Below are positions 1,441 to 5,262 of a stretch of DNA of 5,262 nucleotides, piece by piece. The DNA is from Clostridiales bacterium. Lineage in GTDB: Bacteria > Bacillota_A > Clostridia > Lachnospirales > Lachnospiraceae. The stretch spans positions 1 to 5,262 of the forward strand of contig JASKJZ010000207.1 in NCBI GenBank assembly GCA_030154385.1, given 5' to 3'. The stretch's first letter is position 1; each line of letters opens with the position of its first letter. The notes under the pieces were generated by a model. That model worked only from the letters and a program-made list of their open reading frames with translations, was not told where the DNA came from and did not search any database. The translations under genes were made by a program, and so were the position numbers.

Positions 1441-2062
1441 CGCAATGATTTATGATATTTTAAAAGAGGTATTTAACATCAGCGTTGGGAAAGCAGCCAA
1501 GATGTTATCTGACATCGTAGACCAAAAAATTCGATTGCAGGTGCCAAAGGTAGAAATCATCGATACCTCTACACAAGAGCTAGAAGTAATCGAGTATTTA
1601 CCAGAGCGTATCAGGGGAGCCTTGATGGTATCCTCCATTTCTTTTGAAGAGAGCTTTACGGGGACTGCAAACCTCATATTTCCAGCGGATAAAATGAAGC
1701 AGTTCATCAAGCTTTGCATGCACGAGGAGGATGGCGACCAGGAAGAAATGGAGTTTCATGATATTGATTTTGATATCCTAAAAGAAATTGGGAACATCAT
1801 CTTAAATTGTATCATGGGCGAAACCGGGAACTTTTTGGAAATTAATTTTCATTATTCGCTTCCTGAGGTCAAAGTATTTCATCAAGAAACCTTTTACGAG
1901 ACCATAAAGAACAGTAAATATAAAAATATATTAGTACTATATATCACGTTTGTAATCGGAGACACCGAAATAGAAGGGGCGATTATTGTGGAACTGACTT
2001 TGGATTCCTTAAATGAGCTTCTTAGAAAAGTGGGACAGGCAGAGGAACGACTTTATGACTGA
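1430..2062 (+). CDS. cheC: CheC-family CheY-phosphate phosphatase
   Basis: The 210-residue length is typical of CheC. The family carries two pseudo-symmetric copies of a phosphatase motif D/S-x3-E-x2-N on long helices. Both are intact here: D9-E13-N16 (in 'YDILKEVFNISVGKAA') and D115-E119-N122 (in 'FDILKEIGNIILN'). The 'VPKVEII' segment after the first helix is also CheC-like. Known CheC proteins speed dephosphorylation of phospho-CheY, so the receiver encoded just upstream is the expected substrate. An AAAGGAGAG ribosome binding site (1416-1424) inside the receiver's 3' end supports the start. The 3' end overlaps the cyclase gene by 8 bases (ATGACTGA). No CheD, CheA or flagellar gene is nearby, so a role outside chemotaxis is likely. 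The family call is firm; the exact substrate is inferred. Confidence 0.9.
   Translation: MKDDAMIYDILKEVFNISVGKAAKMLSDIVDQKIRLQVPKVEIIDTSTQELEVIEYLPERIRGALMVSSISFEESFTGTANLIFPADKMKQFIKLCMHEEDGDQEEMEFHDIDFDILKEIGNIILNCIMGETGNFLEINFHYSLPEVKVFHQETFYETIKNSKYKNILVLYITFVIGDTEIEGAIIVELTLDSLNELLRKVGQAEERLYD
2042..2046 (+). promoter_or_regulatory. RBS that decides the cyclase start
   Basis: GAGGA is 8 bases before the ATG at 2055. The upstream in-frame ATG at 2013 has no comparable site and would overlap cheC by 50 bases. Confidence 0.65.
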
Positions 2063-2999
2063 AATGACATATCGGATACTAGACAGCATACATGAGGGGA
2101 TCATTATTATGGATCGCCAAATGAACATTATATATTGGAATCAACAAATGGAGCGGATTCAAAAAAGAGAAAAAAATCAGGTGCTAAATAAGAGTATTTT
2201 TGAGGCAATGCCTGCGTTTCAAAAAAAGTGCTTTCAAGATGCCTTAAAACAGGTGGGTGAAAATGGAGCCCTTCGCTTTTTTTCCGCGGCCATGCATCCG
2301 GAGTTGGTGCTAAATGGAGAATATTTTAATTTGAAAATCGAACGAATCAAGGACTGTGATGGAAAGCTGCTTCTTTTAGAGTTTACCAATGTCAGCAGTC
2401 AGATTTTACAGATTCAGGAGCTGAAAACCTATGTAAAAGACCTGATGCATGCCAATCAGGAGCTTCGGGAAAAAGAGCGTATCATCAAGGATTTGGCGTA
2501 TCATGATACGCTTACCAGAGTGGCAAACCGTACACTCTTTTATAAAATAGCCGATCACTGCATGATGGAGGCGAAACAAAACCAAAGTATCATGGGTCTT
2601 ATGTTTATTGATGTCAATAAATTTAAAAATATCAACGATACCTTTGGGCATGAGATTGGAGACCAGATTCTGGTGCGTGTAGCCGATATGCTGGTCAAAG
2701 CCACCAGAGAACAAGACATCGTAGCAAGATACGGCGGAGATGAGTTTCTTATTTTGCTTACTGACTTAAAAGATGTCATAAACTATGAAATCATCGCTTC
2801 TCGCATCATAAACTTTAAAAACAAGCCGCTCGTCATCGATGGAAATGAAATTCCGATTTCCCTCAGCATGGGAGTATCCTTTTACCCCTATGATGCAGAC
2901 AGCATCGATAAGCTTATCATAGAAGCCGATAAAGCGATGTATGTAGCCAAACGCATGGCAGGCGTCGACAACTGCTTTAGCAGTGTCTGTAATATGTAA
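2055..2999 (+). CDS. Soluble PAS-GGDEF diguanylate cyclase
   Basis: A 314-residue cytoplasmic protein with no signal peptide or membrane segment. Residues ~5-115 form a PAS sensor ('SIHEGIIIMDRQMNIIYWN' is a typical PAS start). Residues ~116-147 are a coiled-coil-like linker. The GGDEF domain runs from ~148 ('AYHDTLTRVANR') to ~305. The signature GGDEF is intact at 227-231, the metal-binding Asp lies in 'FIDVNKFKNIND' (D186), and the inhibitory I-site R-x-x-D (R218-D221, 'REQD') lies exactly five residues before GGDEF. It should therefore convert two GTP to cyclic-di-GMP with product inhibition. There is no EAL domain. It is the last gene of the operon and overlaps cheC by 8 bases. The PAS could bind a ligand or dock the receiver or CheC protein; the sequence does not show which. 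The start at 2055 is chosen from the RBS. Confidence 0.95.
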   Translation: MTEMTYRILDSIHEGIIIMDRQMNIIYWNQQMERIQKREKNQVLNKSIFEAMPAFQKKCFQDALKQVGENGALRFFSAAMHPELVLNGEYFNLKIERIKDCDGKLLLLEFTNVSSQILQIQELKTYVKDLMHANQELREKERIIKDLAYHDTLTRVANRTLFYKIADHCMMEAKQNQSIMGLMFIDVNKFKNINDTFGHEIGDQILVRVADMLVKATREQDIVARYGGDEFLILLTDLKDVINYEIIASRIINFKNKPLVIDGNEIPISLSMGVSFYPYDADSIDKLIIEADKAMYVAKRMAGVDNCFSSVCNM

Positions 3000-3007
3000 G
3001 GATACCA

Positions 3008-3062
3008 GGGTTCCAAAGTCATGTGCTTCATGCTTGCATGAAAGCACATGACCTTGGAACCC
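3008..3062 (+). other. Hairpin H1 of repeat copy 1
   Basis: A long stem pairs 3008-3032 with 3037-3062: GGGTTCCAA against TTGGAACCC, then GTCATGTGCTT against AAGCACATGAC, then CATG against CATG around a CTTG loop. The only defects are an A-C mismatch (3017/3053) and a bulged A (3041). No T-run follows, so it is not a standard terminator. Confidence 0.9.
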
Positions 3063-3065
3063 GCC

Positions 3066-3109
3066 AAAACATGAGAAGGGAGCCCGAAAGGGCGGAGTTC
3101 TCATGTTTT
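3066..3109 (+). other. Hairpin H2 of repeat copy 1, GNRA-type loop
   Basis: A perfect 12-bp outer stem (AAAACATGAGAA / TTCTCATGTTTT) leads to an internal loop GGGA/GGAG. Above it a 4-bp stem GCCC/GGGC is capped by GAAA, which is a GNRA tetraloop in RNA form. The GNRA cap suggests selection as RNA, although the copy 2 counterpart has lost the inner stem. Confidence 0.85.
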
Positions 3110-3110
3110 A

Positions 3111-3142
3111 GGATTGCGAGAGCACAGAGTGCGGAGCAATCC
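3111..3142 (+). other. Hairpin H3 of repeat copy 1, GA-rich internal loop
   Basis: Outer stem GGATTGC/GCAATCC, internal loop GAGA/GGA, inner stem GCAC/GTGC and loop AGA. The loop bases are kept unchanged in copy 2 while the outer stem changes C to U opposite G, which preserves pairing. This is the best conserved part of the element (34 of 42 bases over 3110-3151). Confidence 0.85.
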
Positions 3143-3160
3143 GTGGTATCCGAGGCAAGG

Positions 3161-3216
3161 CAGGAACCAAAGAAAGTGCTCATGCTTGCATGAAAGCACA
3201 TGACCTTGGAAACCTG
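3161..3216 (+). repeat. Partial extra copy of hairpin H1
   Basis: Bases 3181-3211 repeat 3029-3059 exactly (31 of 31). The surrounding bases still fold: CAGG/CCTG, an AA/AAA internal loop, CCAA/TTGG, then GTGCT/AGCAC and CATGC/GCATG around TT. This looks like a duplicated and partly rebuilt H1 arm next to copy 1. Confidence 0.85.
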
Positions 3217-3217
3217 T

Positions 3218-3276
3218 AGCACAAAAAAGGAAGGAAAAAAACTGAGCCTCAGTTTTTTTCCTTCCTTTTTTGTGCT
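3218..3276. terminator. 59-bp near-perfect palindrome, likely bidirectional terminator
   Basis: The arms 3218-3246 and 3248-3276 are perfect 29-base reverse complements around one central C. Each strand carries A-runs on the left and T-runs on the right (AAAAAAGG...AAAAAAACTGAG, mirrored). It lies between the converging cyclase operon and the minus-strand XRE gene, so it can end transcripts from both sides. It overlaps the last codons of the XRE gene. Confidence 0.8.
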
Positions 3277-3629
3277 GCACTCTGCGCTTTTAGAAACCTG
3301 GCATATGTAATCAGCTTATCAGCTTCTTCTCCTCTTGCGACCTCAAGCACCATCTGGAGATCCTTATTATTCGTAAGCTCCAAGCTAAGCTCCCTAAGCT
3401 CCTCGTTTAGAGAACCAGGAGAACTCGAAGGAGTATTTTTATCTCCGTGTATAAAATAATCTACATCAACACCGAAGTAGTCGGCAATAATGGTAAGCTT
3501 ATCAAGTTTAGGGGTACTAAGCCCTTTTTTCCAGGCACTAAAGATAGATTGTGCGATGTGGGTGTCCTTTGCCACCCGATAAGTTGTAACACCACGACTT
3601 TTTAATAAGACTTCAAAGTTTTGATACAT
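3249..3629 (-). CDS. XRE-family HTH transcriptional regulator, 126 aa
   Basis: The N-terminal ~60 residues are a Cro/C1-type helix-turn-helix: 'TYRVAKDTHIAQSIFSAWKKG', with the second (recognition) helix starting at 'AQSIFSAW', then 'TPKLDKLTIIADYFGVDVDYFI'. A serine/proline linker follows (~65-73), then a helical tail (~74-126, 'NEELRELSLEL', 'DLQMVLEVARGEEADKL') like the dimerisation tails of clostridial phage-type repressors. The ATG at 3629 has AGGAG (3640-3636) six bases upstream; a GTG at 3632 is a poorer alternative. The last residues (AQKRKEKN) and the stop are encoded inside the 59-bp palindrome. The gene and its control region lie between two inverted copies of the 152-bp element. 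It shares 34 of 60 N-terminal residues with the regulator at 4049. It probably represses its own overlapping promoters; targets unknown. Confidence 0.9.
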   Translation of the reverse strand: MYQNFEVLLKSRGVTTYRVAKDTHIAQSIFSAWKKGLSTPKLDKLTIIADYFGVDVDYFIHGDKNTPSSSPGSLNEELRELSLELTNNKDLQMVLEVARGEEADKLITYARFLKAQSAAQKRKEKN

Positions 3630-3635
3630 CACTAT

Positions 3636-3640
3636 CTCCT
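3636..3640 (-). promoter_or_regulatory. RBS of the minus-strand XRE gene
   Basis: AGGAG on the minus strand is six bases from the ATG at 3629 and only three from the GTG at 3632, so the ATG is preferred. Confidence 0.7.
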
Positions 3641-3660
3641 TTCAAAAGGAACAAAAGTTG

Positions 3661-3689
3661 TTGACTAATAAAAAAACATGTAGTAGTAT
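3661..3689 (+). promoter_or_regulatory. Predicted plus-strand promoter divergent from the XRE gene
   Basis: TTGACT (3661-3666), a 17-base spacer, then TAGTAT (3684-3689). On the minus strand a good -10 (TATACT, 3690-3685) overlaps it, but without a clear -35, so the XRE gene's own promoter probably lies here too. The plus-strand transcript would cross the antisense of repeat copy 2 and reach the XRE paralogue at 4049 after ~350 nt. Apart from the operator described separately, 3706-3781 shows nothing recognisable. Confidence 0.5.
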
Positions 3690-3703
3690 ATAAAAAGTAC
3701 TAC
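3683..3703. promoter_or_regulatory. Candidate XRE operator
   Basis: GTAGTA (3683-3688), nine bases, TACTAC (3698-3703): an inverted repeat overlapping the -10 boxes on both strands. A dyad in the divergent promoter of an XRE gene is the usual place for autoregulation. There is no second matching site to confirm it. Confidence 0.45.
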
Positions 3704-3786
3704 AAAATATGGAAGTAAAAAGATAAAATACTTCTGTAAAATTAAGTATTTATATGAGGTGAGCGTTATACGCTGTATTTTTACAA

Positions 3787-3938
3787 TGGTACCATAGATT
3801 GCTCCGCATCTTGTGCTCTCACAATCCTAAAGCATTTGAAATCCGTCTTATTCAGGAAAATTTCATATGTTTTTGTGGGTTATACGGTTATGTTTTTTCA
3901 TGTAAATTGGAAACACATGCCTTCAAACCGTGATATCA
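3787..3938 (-). repeat. 152-bp folded repeat element, copy 2 (inverted, diverged)
   Basis: Read on the minus strand, it aligns with copy 1 from end to end at the same length. Its ends TGATATCA and TGGTACCA still pair (one G-T, one mismatch), and the stem extends five more bases (TACAA 3782-3786 with TTGTA 3939-3943). The H3 region matches at 34 of 42 bases. The H1 right arm (3878-3903) matches at 19 of 26. H1 and H2 stems persist with mismatches, but the inner H2 stem and GNRA loop are lost. It lies upstream of the minus-strand XRE promoter and points toward that gene, as does copy 1 from the other side. It is apparently an older, decaying copy. Confidence 0.8.
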
Positions 3939-4048: not shown

Positions 4049-4270
4049 ATGTATCAAAAGTTTCGAAAATTGATTGATGAAAGGGGCATTACTGCGTATC
4101 GGGTATCGATGGATACGGGCATTGCACAATCTTGTCTCAGTGACTGGAAAAATGGCAGAAGTAAACCTAAAATTGACAAGCTGATTATTTTGGCAGATTA
4201 TCTGGGGGTACCACTTGAGGATTTGATTGATCGAAGGGACAAAACAGAAGTCAAGGGGGAGAATGGATGA
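4049..4270 (+). CDS. Short XRE-family HTH regulator, 73 aa
   Basis: It consists almost entirely of a Cro/C1-type DNA-binding domain: 'AYRVSMDTGIAQSCLSDWKN' and 'KPKIDKLIILADYLGV', ending in a short charged tail. It aligns with the first ~60 residues of the minus-strand regulator at 34 of 60 positions, including the opening MYQ-F, but lacks that protein's linker and helical tail. The frame is open back to 3836, but the extra 71 codons lie in repeat copy 2 and its flank, have no plausible domain, and are bypassed by the RBS at 4035. It could be a Cro-like partner of the larger repressor or a truncated duplicate. It is likely co-controlled from the promoter near 3661. Confidence 0.85.
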   Translation: MYQKFRKLIDERGITAYRVSMDTGIAQSCLSDWKNGRSKPKIDKLIILADYLGVPLEDLIDRRDKTEVKGENG

Positions 4271-4532: not shown

Positions 4533-5003
4533 ATGAACCAAATGAGAAAAATCATCAAAAAGGCAGCAGTCGTAACACTTACTTCTGCCATGGTTGTAAC
4601 AACGGTACCTGCAGTTGCACCGTTAGTACATGTAGGGGCAGCCGCTAAGACACAAATTGTGGTATCAAACAAGAGAACTGTTTTAGTTGCTGGAAGAACA
4701 TATTCCGTAAAGACAAAGGGAGCTACAGGCTTTAAGAGCAGCAATAAAAAGGTTGCTACGATTACAAAGGCTGGAAAGATTTCTCCAAAGAAAACTGGAT
4801 ATGTAAATATTACTGCAAAGGTGGACGGCAAGACTGTTACCACAAAGTTCCTTTGTGTATCCAAGACTGGATCTACCAGTTCTGAAGCAAAAGTGAAAAA
4901 GATGCCACCTAATAATCCCTCCCAACTTTTTTTTGGTGAAAAATGTGGAGAAAGTTTATGTTTACCGAAACTCAACCCAAAAAAATATGCACCGGCGTCA
5001 TAA
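4533..5003 (+). CDS. Secreted Big_2 (Ig-like) domain protein, native part ends near 4900; C-terminus chimeric
   Basis: The signal peptide is clear: positively charged MNQMRKIIKK, a hydrophobic core (~11-32) and a likely cleavage after GAAA (~38). Residues ~42-109 form one Big_2 domain ('GFKSSNKKVATITKAGKISP', then 'GYVNITAKV'). A Ser/Thr linker starts (~110-119). From about residue 124 the sequence ('MPPNNPSQLFF' onward, to the stop at 5003) is the antisense of a cdsA-like gene on the other strand and is not native protein. The real protein is probably much longer. Promoter and AGGAGG support the start. The domain resembles the C-terminal one of the protein at 1-951, so the two may be related surface proteins. 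The role in the cell envelope is unknown. Confidence 0.85.
   Translation: MNQMRKIIKKAAVVTLTSAMVVTTVPAVAPLVHVGAAAKTQIVVSNKRTVLVAGRTYSVKTKGATGFKSSNKKVATITKAGKISPKKTGYVNITAKVDGKTVTTKFLCVSKTGSTSSEAKVKKMPPNNPSQLFFGEKCGESLCLPKLNPKKYAPAS
4885..4904. other. Chimeric or rearrangement junction
   Basis: To the left, the plus strand reads a normal Big_2 secreted protein. To the right, the minus strand reads conserved CdsA sequence whose last conserved pair, Gly-Gly, is encoded at 4904-4909. Each reading frame stays open into the other's antisense and loses all family character. GC falls from ~43% to ~33% (hand counts). The break must lie at or left of 4904. Confidence 0.75.
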
Positions 5004-5262
5004 GCCCATACTGCAGTTAATGCTAAAATCGCCATCCCTGGTCCATAGTTCAAATGAATCAAATAAAAGTTTGAAAGAAAAAAAGATACGTAGATAATGC
5101 TTAAAGCAGAAGATTCTATAAACCTTTTTGTGTACGTTATCTCTTTAACTAAAAGCATAATTGAAAATACAGACGCTACAAAAGCTAAGAAAAATATTCC
5201 TTCACTTTCAAAAGGTAAAATTCCTCTATATTCAGCCTCCAAGGAGAATCCATATATAAGAC
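4904..5262 (-). CDS. cdsA: Phosphatidate cytidylyltransferase (CdsA) fragment, both ends missing
   Basis: CdsA makes CDP-diacylglycerol from phosphatidate and CTP in the membrane, the branch point of phospholipid synthesis. The fragment shows hydrophobic segments ('GIFFLAFVASVFSIMLLV', 'ALSIIYVSFFLSNFYLIHL', 'GMAILALTAVWAYDAGAYFF') and the diagnostic 'DAGAYFFGLSFGKHKLSP' followed by 'SPKKSWEGLLGG'. The frame is open to the window edge with no need for a start at 5242, so the N-terminus is outside. On the other side it stops abruptly at the junction: the C-terminal family signature (K-R/K-D...G-H-G-G..D-R-x-D) is absent, and the further open frame down to 4529 is only antisense of the Big_2 gene. 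Lower GC than its neighbour suggests another genome or region. About 119 residues of a usual ~270 are present. Confidence 0.85.

Follow-up and report, generated by a model that had tools for sequence, protein, structure and literature searches.

Two 152-nt copies of a folded repeat, equal in length and inverted to each other, flank a gene for an XRE-type regulator in the window, the 5,262-nt stretch of DNA analysed here, and the question is what kind of sequence such a repeat is. The first-pass annotation, which had called it unrecognised, offered three readings: a composite mobile unit with the regulator, a pair of miniature elements, or paired RNA structures. Our analysis indicates that the two repeats are very probably an intact and a decayed copy of one non-autonomous, MITE-like element, identical with the Rfam family RF01699. 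This is the most likely reading of the family because its copies are dispersed among unlike flanks, have definable ends, are bordered by 7-bp duplications and, at one site, can be compared with an unoccupied relative.

Two members of RF01699 in the window

The features of the window are listed in Table 1. Both repeats share the sequence and the fold of RF01699 (Clostridiales-1 RNA) and, with 152 nt each, cover positions 1 to 166 of its model at the coordinates first noted, so the repeat is a known one. Copy 1 matched the full model with 118.3 bits, above the gathering cut-off of 48 bits, and copy 2, recovered in a permissive search, narrowly missed that cut-off (46.1 bits, E 1.1e-8). Our own model R1 gave 134.5 bits for copy 1 and 83.9 bits for copy 2, scores that are not independent because both window copies were among the 32 sequences on which it was trained.

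Table 1. Coordinates of the features in the window
Feature	Position	Strand	Evidence
PAS-GGDEF gene, just upstream of copy 1	2013..2999	+	Pfam GGDEF, 151.4 bits
Copy 1, intact Rfam core (RF01699) with three stems and a closing terminal stem	3000..3151	+	118.3 bits
Left end of copy 1 (inverted-repeat region), GATACCAGGG...	3001..3018	+	Start as in target-duplicated copies elsewhere
Partial second unit, first hairpin again 152 nt on	3152..3214	+	3028-3062 vs 3180-3214, 34/35 bases
Inverted repeat between GGDEF and XRE genes, outside the element	3215..3279	.	32-nt arms, 97% complementary, 1-nt spacer
XRE-type regulator between the copies	3249..3632	-	Pfam HTH_26 and HTH_3 above cut-off
Copy 2, decayed RF01699 member	3787..3938	-	46.1 bits, E 1.1e-8; folding z -1.24
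Second XRE-type gene, divergent from the first across copy 2	4049..4270	+	Pfam HTH_19 and HTH_3

In a global alignment the two copies were 71% identical, with a score of 61 that was equalled by 0/2000 dinucleotide shuffles (mean -35.5, maximum -13). Identity was 80% in H3 plus the terminal stem and 68% outside them, and in neither part did any of 2000 shuffles do as well. The claim of two homologous copies that align over their full extent, which had been staked on the identity outside H3 being better than that of shuffled sequence, therefore stands. As a control, copy 1 aligned to the wrong strand of copy 2 scored -15, which lies above all shuffles (maximum -19) because the element is palindromic, and far below 61. 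What needs correcting is the extent: the 152-bp repeat is real, but it is the Rfam core and not the whole element, whose right end lies further 3'.

The first-pass description of a clean first and an eroded second copy was borne out by the folding z-scores, which were -11.73 for copy 1 (0/200 shuffles as good) and -1.24 for copy 2 (22/200 shuffles as good). Copies from the genome G046 were the nearest relatives of both copy 1 (85% identity) and copy 2 (74%), and 48 of the 101 copies analysed, all from other genomes, resembled copy 1 more closely than copy 2 does. Together with the unequal decay and the 71% likeness, this supports the earlier suggestion of separate insertions. Neither a 7-bp duplication nor the canonical right end could be recognised at either window copy.

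Dispersal across genomes of the family

We surveyed 397 genomes of the family to which G001, Lacrimispora defluvii, belongs, the Lachnospiraceae of established taxonomy. A match to RF01699 (E <= 0.001) was present in at least 214 of them and reached the cut-off in at least 176, both counts being lower bounds because at most seven candidates per genome were scored, under stricter filters. In 12 genomes picked from the survey for fuller scoring, with completeness unstated, the matches numbered 31, at least 89, 15, 10, 21, 20, at least 67, at least 93, at least 96, 2, 16 and 4. The ten loci closest to the CheC-like gene of the window, mostly from Lacrimispora, were 54-59% identical to it, with G172 at 72%; eight genomes behind these ten loci gave no RF01699 match, and there the controls were silent too, though the same search gave signals elsewhere.

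The 101 copies analysed comprise 66 from rich genomes (G046, 23; G279, 21; G035, 12; G240, 10) and 35 loci from the family searches, which represent 31 genomes, G279 being one. Eighteen single loci (11 duplicates, 3 further copies and 4 that were short-flanked or odd) and one middle unit of a tandem array were set aside. The four-genome sample favours well-kept copies, because its members were the highest-scoring ones. Within a genome, the median identity between copies was 97% in G046, 97% in G240, 87% in G279 and 80% in G035, and the flanks were 47-52% identical, which is the random level.

According to our own gene calls, 91 of 99 copies lie outside open reading frames (ORFs), and each of the other 8 overlaps a short ORF (81-128 aa) which may not be a gene. 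Among these 99 copies, 22 run along tandem genes and 22 against them, 29 lie between divergent and 13 between convergent genes, and 5 have no called neighbour. Ten neighbour proteins, chosen from 23 listed, fall into unrelated families: MreB, ABC transporter, Fe-ADH, response regulator, CbiD, methyltransferase, TIM barrel, LysR, tRNA modification and phosphofructokinase. The left flanks look rich in promoters by eye and the right flanks score nearly as well, with promoter-like pairs in 19/70 left and 12/70 right flanks; neither these counts nor the even orientation supports an insertion behind promoters or a role as a leader.

As to phages and plasmids, the window copy used as query had no match in the phage, plasmid and viral collections. 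An element of the G046 type matched 8 of 50,697 phage records and 1 of 72,556 plasmid records, the 30-nt right-end query aligned over no more than short stretches, in 3 plasmid records, and in the viral collection the right-end pattern was found 0 times and the H3 pattern once. One contig of the viral collection (L137) carries a full copy at 12294-12461 (151.2 bits) in what may be prophage or host DNA.

Ends, target duplications and an empty site

By eye, the left end of the element reads GATACCAGGGTCAAAAGG, and the right end, ...ACCTTTTGACCCC(T/A)ACATC, also read as ...TTTTGACCCC(T/A)ACATC, is an imperfect inverted copy of it. In 70 of the 101 copies, a motif search that tolerated up to 3 mismatches located the right inverted-repeat end 15-34 nt downstream of the point where the Rfam model stops; in the remaining 31 the right end was unrecognisable or the copy repeated a site already counted. 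The full element measures ~180-205 bp in well-kept subfamilies, with its right end ~30 nt past that of the Rfam model.

When the seven bases bordering the left end were searched for freely within ~110 nt to the right, an exact copy was found for 50/101 elements, compared with 3.2% for swapped flanks. In fixed register, the duplication of 7 bp was exact in 39 of 70 copies (swapped flanks: mean 0.75, maximum 6, in 2000 trials), and 47 of 70 had at most one mismatch (mean 5.83, maximum 16, in 2000 trials). Base composition shifts over exactly seven positions, to ATWWWAT. Among internally deleted derivatives, 9 of the 15 listed showed exact 7-9-bp repeats by eye, as did 3 of the 6 shortest (36-38 bp).

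An unoccupied counterpart was found for one copy. At C4:67624 of G046 the occupied site reads ATTATAT-element-ATTATAT, and in G406, a relative from the same genus, its flanks align across a single ATTATAT; G405 is also without the element there, with a joint that does not align to the base. This clean empty site is one among 9 element-like places in 120 kb of the G046 contig, the other 8 not being judged to the base because their flanks were missing or had diverged. In G405 and G406, ~79 kb each contained no element-like place, and both carry copies elsewhere, one of them common to the two genomes with its duplication included. The site of that common copy could not be located in either G046 or G362, to which no more than ~580-600 of the 1480 flank bases aligned, and a second empty site was not obtained from G202, whose relative was too distant.

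For the family, copies, ends, duplications and the empty site thus uphold the 'pair of miniature elements' among the earlier readings; the two window copies themselves lack a recognisable duplication. By eye, the 3' flanks of the copies L026 and L019 hold further short palindromic elements (GATACCAGTGTGAAAAG... and GATGTTAGGGTCAAAAAATGC...) right next to RF01699; their ends resemble those of RF01699, and they are perhaps sister families.

Tandem units and remnants

In the window, the place of the canonical right end behind copy 1 is occupied by the partial second unit, and similar partial or full tandem units occur in other genomes. Arrays are built of 146-nt units in G046 (L116) and of 159-nt units in G279 (L079). 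Short direct repeats are common to both ends of the element (AGGGTCAAAA near the left, AGGGGGCAAAA or AGGGGTCAAAA near the right), and by eye L148, L159 and L165 hold remnants that look like joints between these end repeats, while those in L161, L177 and L175 are right-end palindromes without an exact duplication. Crossing over between the direct repeats of the ends would yield both the arrays and the 36-37-bp remnants, and, judged from its sequence, the partial unit that follows copy 1 probably arose in this way. At L079 (1159-1640), three 159-nt tandem units follow an RF01699 copy, with the third stem kept and the rest re-paired.

Search for a mobilising transposase

The ATWWWAT sites with a 7-bp duplication point to a putative DDE-type transposase that would act in trans. 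Searches with end patterns in 8 genomes, and again in G046 alone, revealed no transposase with element ends among the matches listed. Scanning 40 loci around end-like hits for the ends and the H3 motif likewise yielded no transposase, with ~11 loci having only one end, and none of the PF01609 hits fetched from 8 genomes (30 of 31) was flanked by both ends; one of them, L243, has an ordinary element end nearby. All fetched loci together contained 12 pairs of ends 0.5-5 kb apart, 2 of them duplicate places. At the 10 end pairs and 11 lone ends, the larger ORFs looked like host genes by eye, and no pair had a flanking duplication.

A covarying fold and its possible causes

The covariation set consisted of 30 copies from 28 genomes together with both window copies, and its alignment also served to predict the structure. 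In 32 of 40 predicted pairs both sides have changed with pairing kept, and 95.4% of the cells pair. The covariation score of 0.430 compares with 0.174 after shuffling (0/500 reach it) and with at most 0.102 for slid structures. G-U pairs outnumber A-C mispairs by 66 to 38, and by 29 to 8 in H2 and H3; these were counted in the best 74 of 103 model matches, 70 of them unique. The excess, suggestive of an RNA of this strand, is a hint only, because the structure guided the alignment and the sequences share ancestry. As modelled, the fold is under selection in the spreading lineages despite mobility. The first-pass suggestion of paired RNA structures is half supported, by strong covariation, the RNA itself remaining predicted.

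In the mechanism that we propose, the element, as the analysed copies show, sits at intergenic ATWWWAT sites with a 7-bp duplication. Spreading lineages would keep the fold by compensatory change, and dead copies, such as copy 2, would lose it. A fold kept in spreaders and lost in dead copies suggests selection through the element's own success, that is, mainly via its spread or tolerability and not via control of neighbouring genes.

The boldest reading left goes further and makes RF01699 a mobile RNA element, in which the covarying fold would be that of an RNA made by the element and needed for its own spread, for example as a partner of the transposase or as a cleaving RNA that makes insertions harmless. 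We regard this model as unlikely; if it were true, RNA function and transposition would be selected together in a transposon of ~200 bp.

That RF01699 is instead an ordinary small RNA gene or a cis-acting RNA, its copies forming a gene family with no transposon involved, is highly unlikely in our judgement. Rfam assigns the type 'Gene; sRNA', in the accessible text of the 2010 discovery paper (Weinberg et al. 2010, PMC2864571) the family appears only in a table, which rates it a probable RNA that is unlikely to be cis-regulatory or a switch, and the covariation exceeds what a plain MITE would need and fits an RNA function, with the G-U excess leaning weakly the same way. The Rfam entry, however, describes an sRNA gene that ends at the terminal stem, whereas the analysed copies have inverted-repeat ends beyond the model, 7-bp target duplications, unrelated neighbours and an empty site. 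Their even orientation to tandem genes and the similar numbers of promoter-like pairs on either side also argue against it.

Movement as single-stranded DNA by way of the hairpins, in the manner of IS200/IS605- or REP-like elements with a Y1 (HUH) transposase, would account for the conserved hairpins and for a fold that is kept though copies face both ways, and RF01699 resembles REP/RAYT and IS200/IS605-type elements in being short, palindromic and intergenic. To our knowledge, elements of the IS200/IS605 and REP types insert without duplicating their target and lack true terminal inverted repeats, but RF01699 has both a duplication and such repeats, which leaves this explanation extremely unlikely.

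The XRE gene and its surroundings

That the two copies and the XRE gene between them form one composite mobile unit, as inverted copies of equal length facing each other across a gene might suggest, is hardly credible at all: the closely similar flanking copies of a composite transposon are not what 71% identity amounts to, 48 of the 101 foreign copies resemble copy 1 more than copy 2 does, copy 2 has lost the fold, no target duplication was seen around the whole unit, the ten flanking proteins of other copies belong to unrelated families, and the divergent XRE pairs of G172 and G003 have no element in the spacers printed. These pairs occur once in G172 and twice in G003 (L252, L253, L255), away from the CheC-GGDEF locus, and the spacer between the matched XRE frames measures 204-233 nt there, compared with 416 in the window. 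No homologues of the XRE protein were found in viral contigs. Since the copies are not each other's closest relatives, the XRE gene looks like a bystander, and its position between them is best explained by chance, through two independent insertions of unequal age.

Two further features of the window lie outside the element. The inverted repeat at 3215-3279 reaches into the 3' end of the XRE gene and, from its sequence, is probably a two-way terminator that serves this gene and the GGDEF gene. At ~4533-5260, a Big_2 surface-protein ORF on the plus strand runs into a CdsA-like cytidylyltransferase on the opposite strand (Pfam matches, read by eye), and the switch near 4900 may be a chimeric assembly joint or a real rearrangement.

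Relation to known elements and implications

RF01699, as a MITE-like element, has its closest counterparts in BOX, RUP and SPRITE of Streptococcus pneumoniae (PMC3049150) and in the MITEs of PMC10969869, which, in the accessible text of these papers, have in common with it a length below 210 bp, inverted-repeat ends, a target duplication, an intergenic position, a fold and many copies; modular or tandem forms are a further likeness to BOX. MITEs whose transcripts fold are already described in the same text. RF01699 differs in that no partner transposase was found and in that covariation over several stems was measured across 28 genomes; in the accessible main text of PMC3049150, the string 'covar' does not occur. 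IStrons resemble RF01699 as an idea, combining a DNA transposon with a structured RNA; as the accessible text of PMC4227781 describes them, they contain both a group I intron and an insertion sequence, and RF01699 showed neither.

Among the titles and abstracts listed in searches of the open-access literature, none calls RF01699 mobile; subscription journals fell mostly outside that search, as did the 2010 supplement, so earlier recognition is possible. As far as the searches reach, the assignment of RF01699 as a MITE, its right end, its target duplication and the measured strength of its covariation are new.

RF01699 is used for annotating bacterial non-coding RNA and would need re-reading as a transposable element. 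Counts of RF01699 'sRNA genes' in Lachnospiraceae would then be inflated, and the family boundary would be ~30 nt short. The family would also offer a clean test case for the question of why compensatory change preserves an RNA-like fold in so small a transposon, for which decayed copies such as copy 2 would serve as natural controls.
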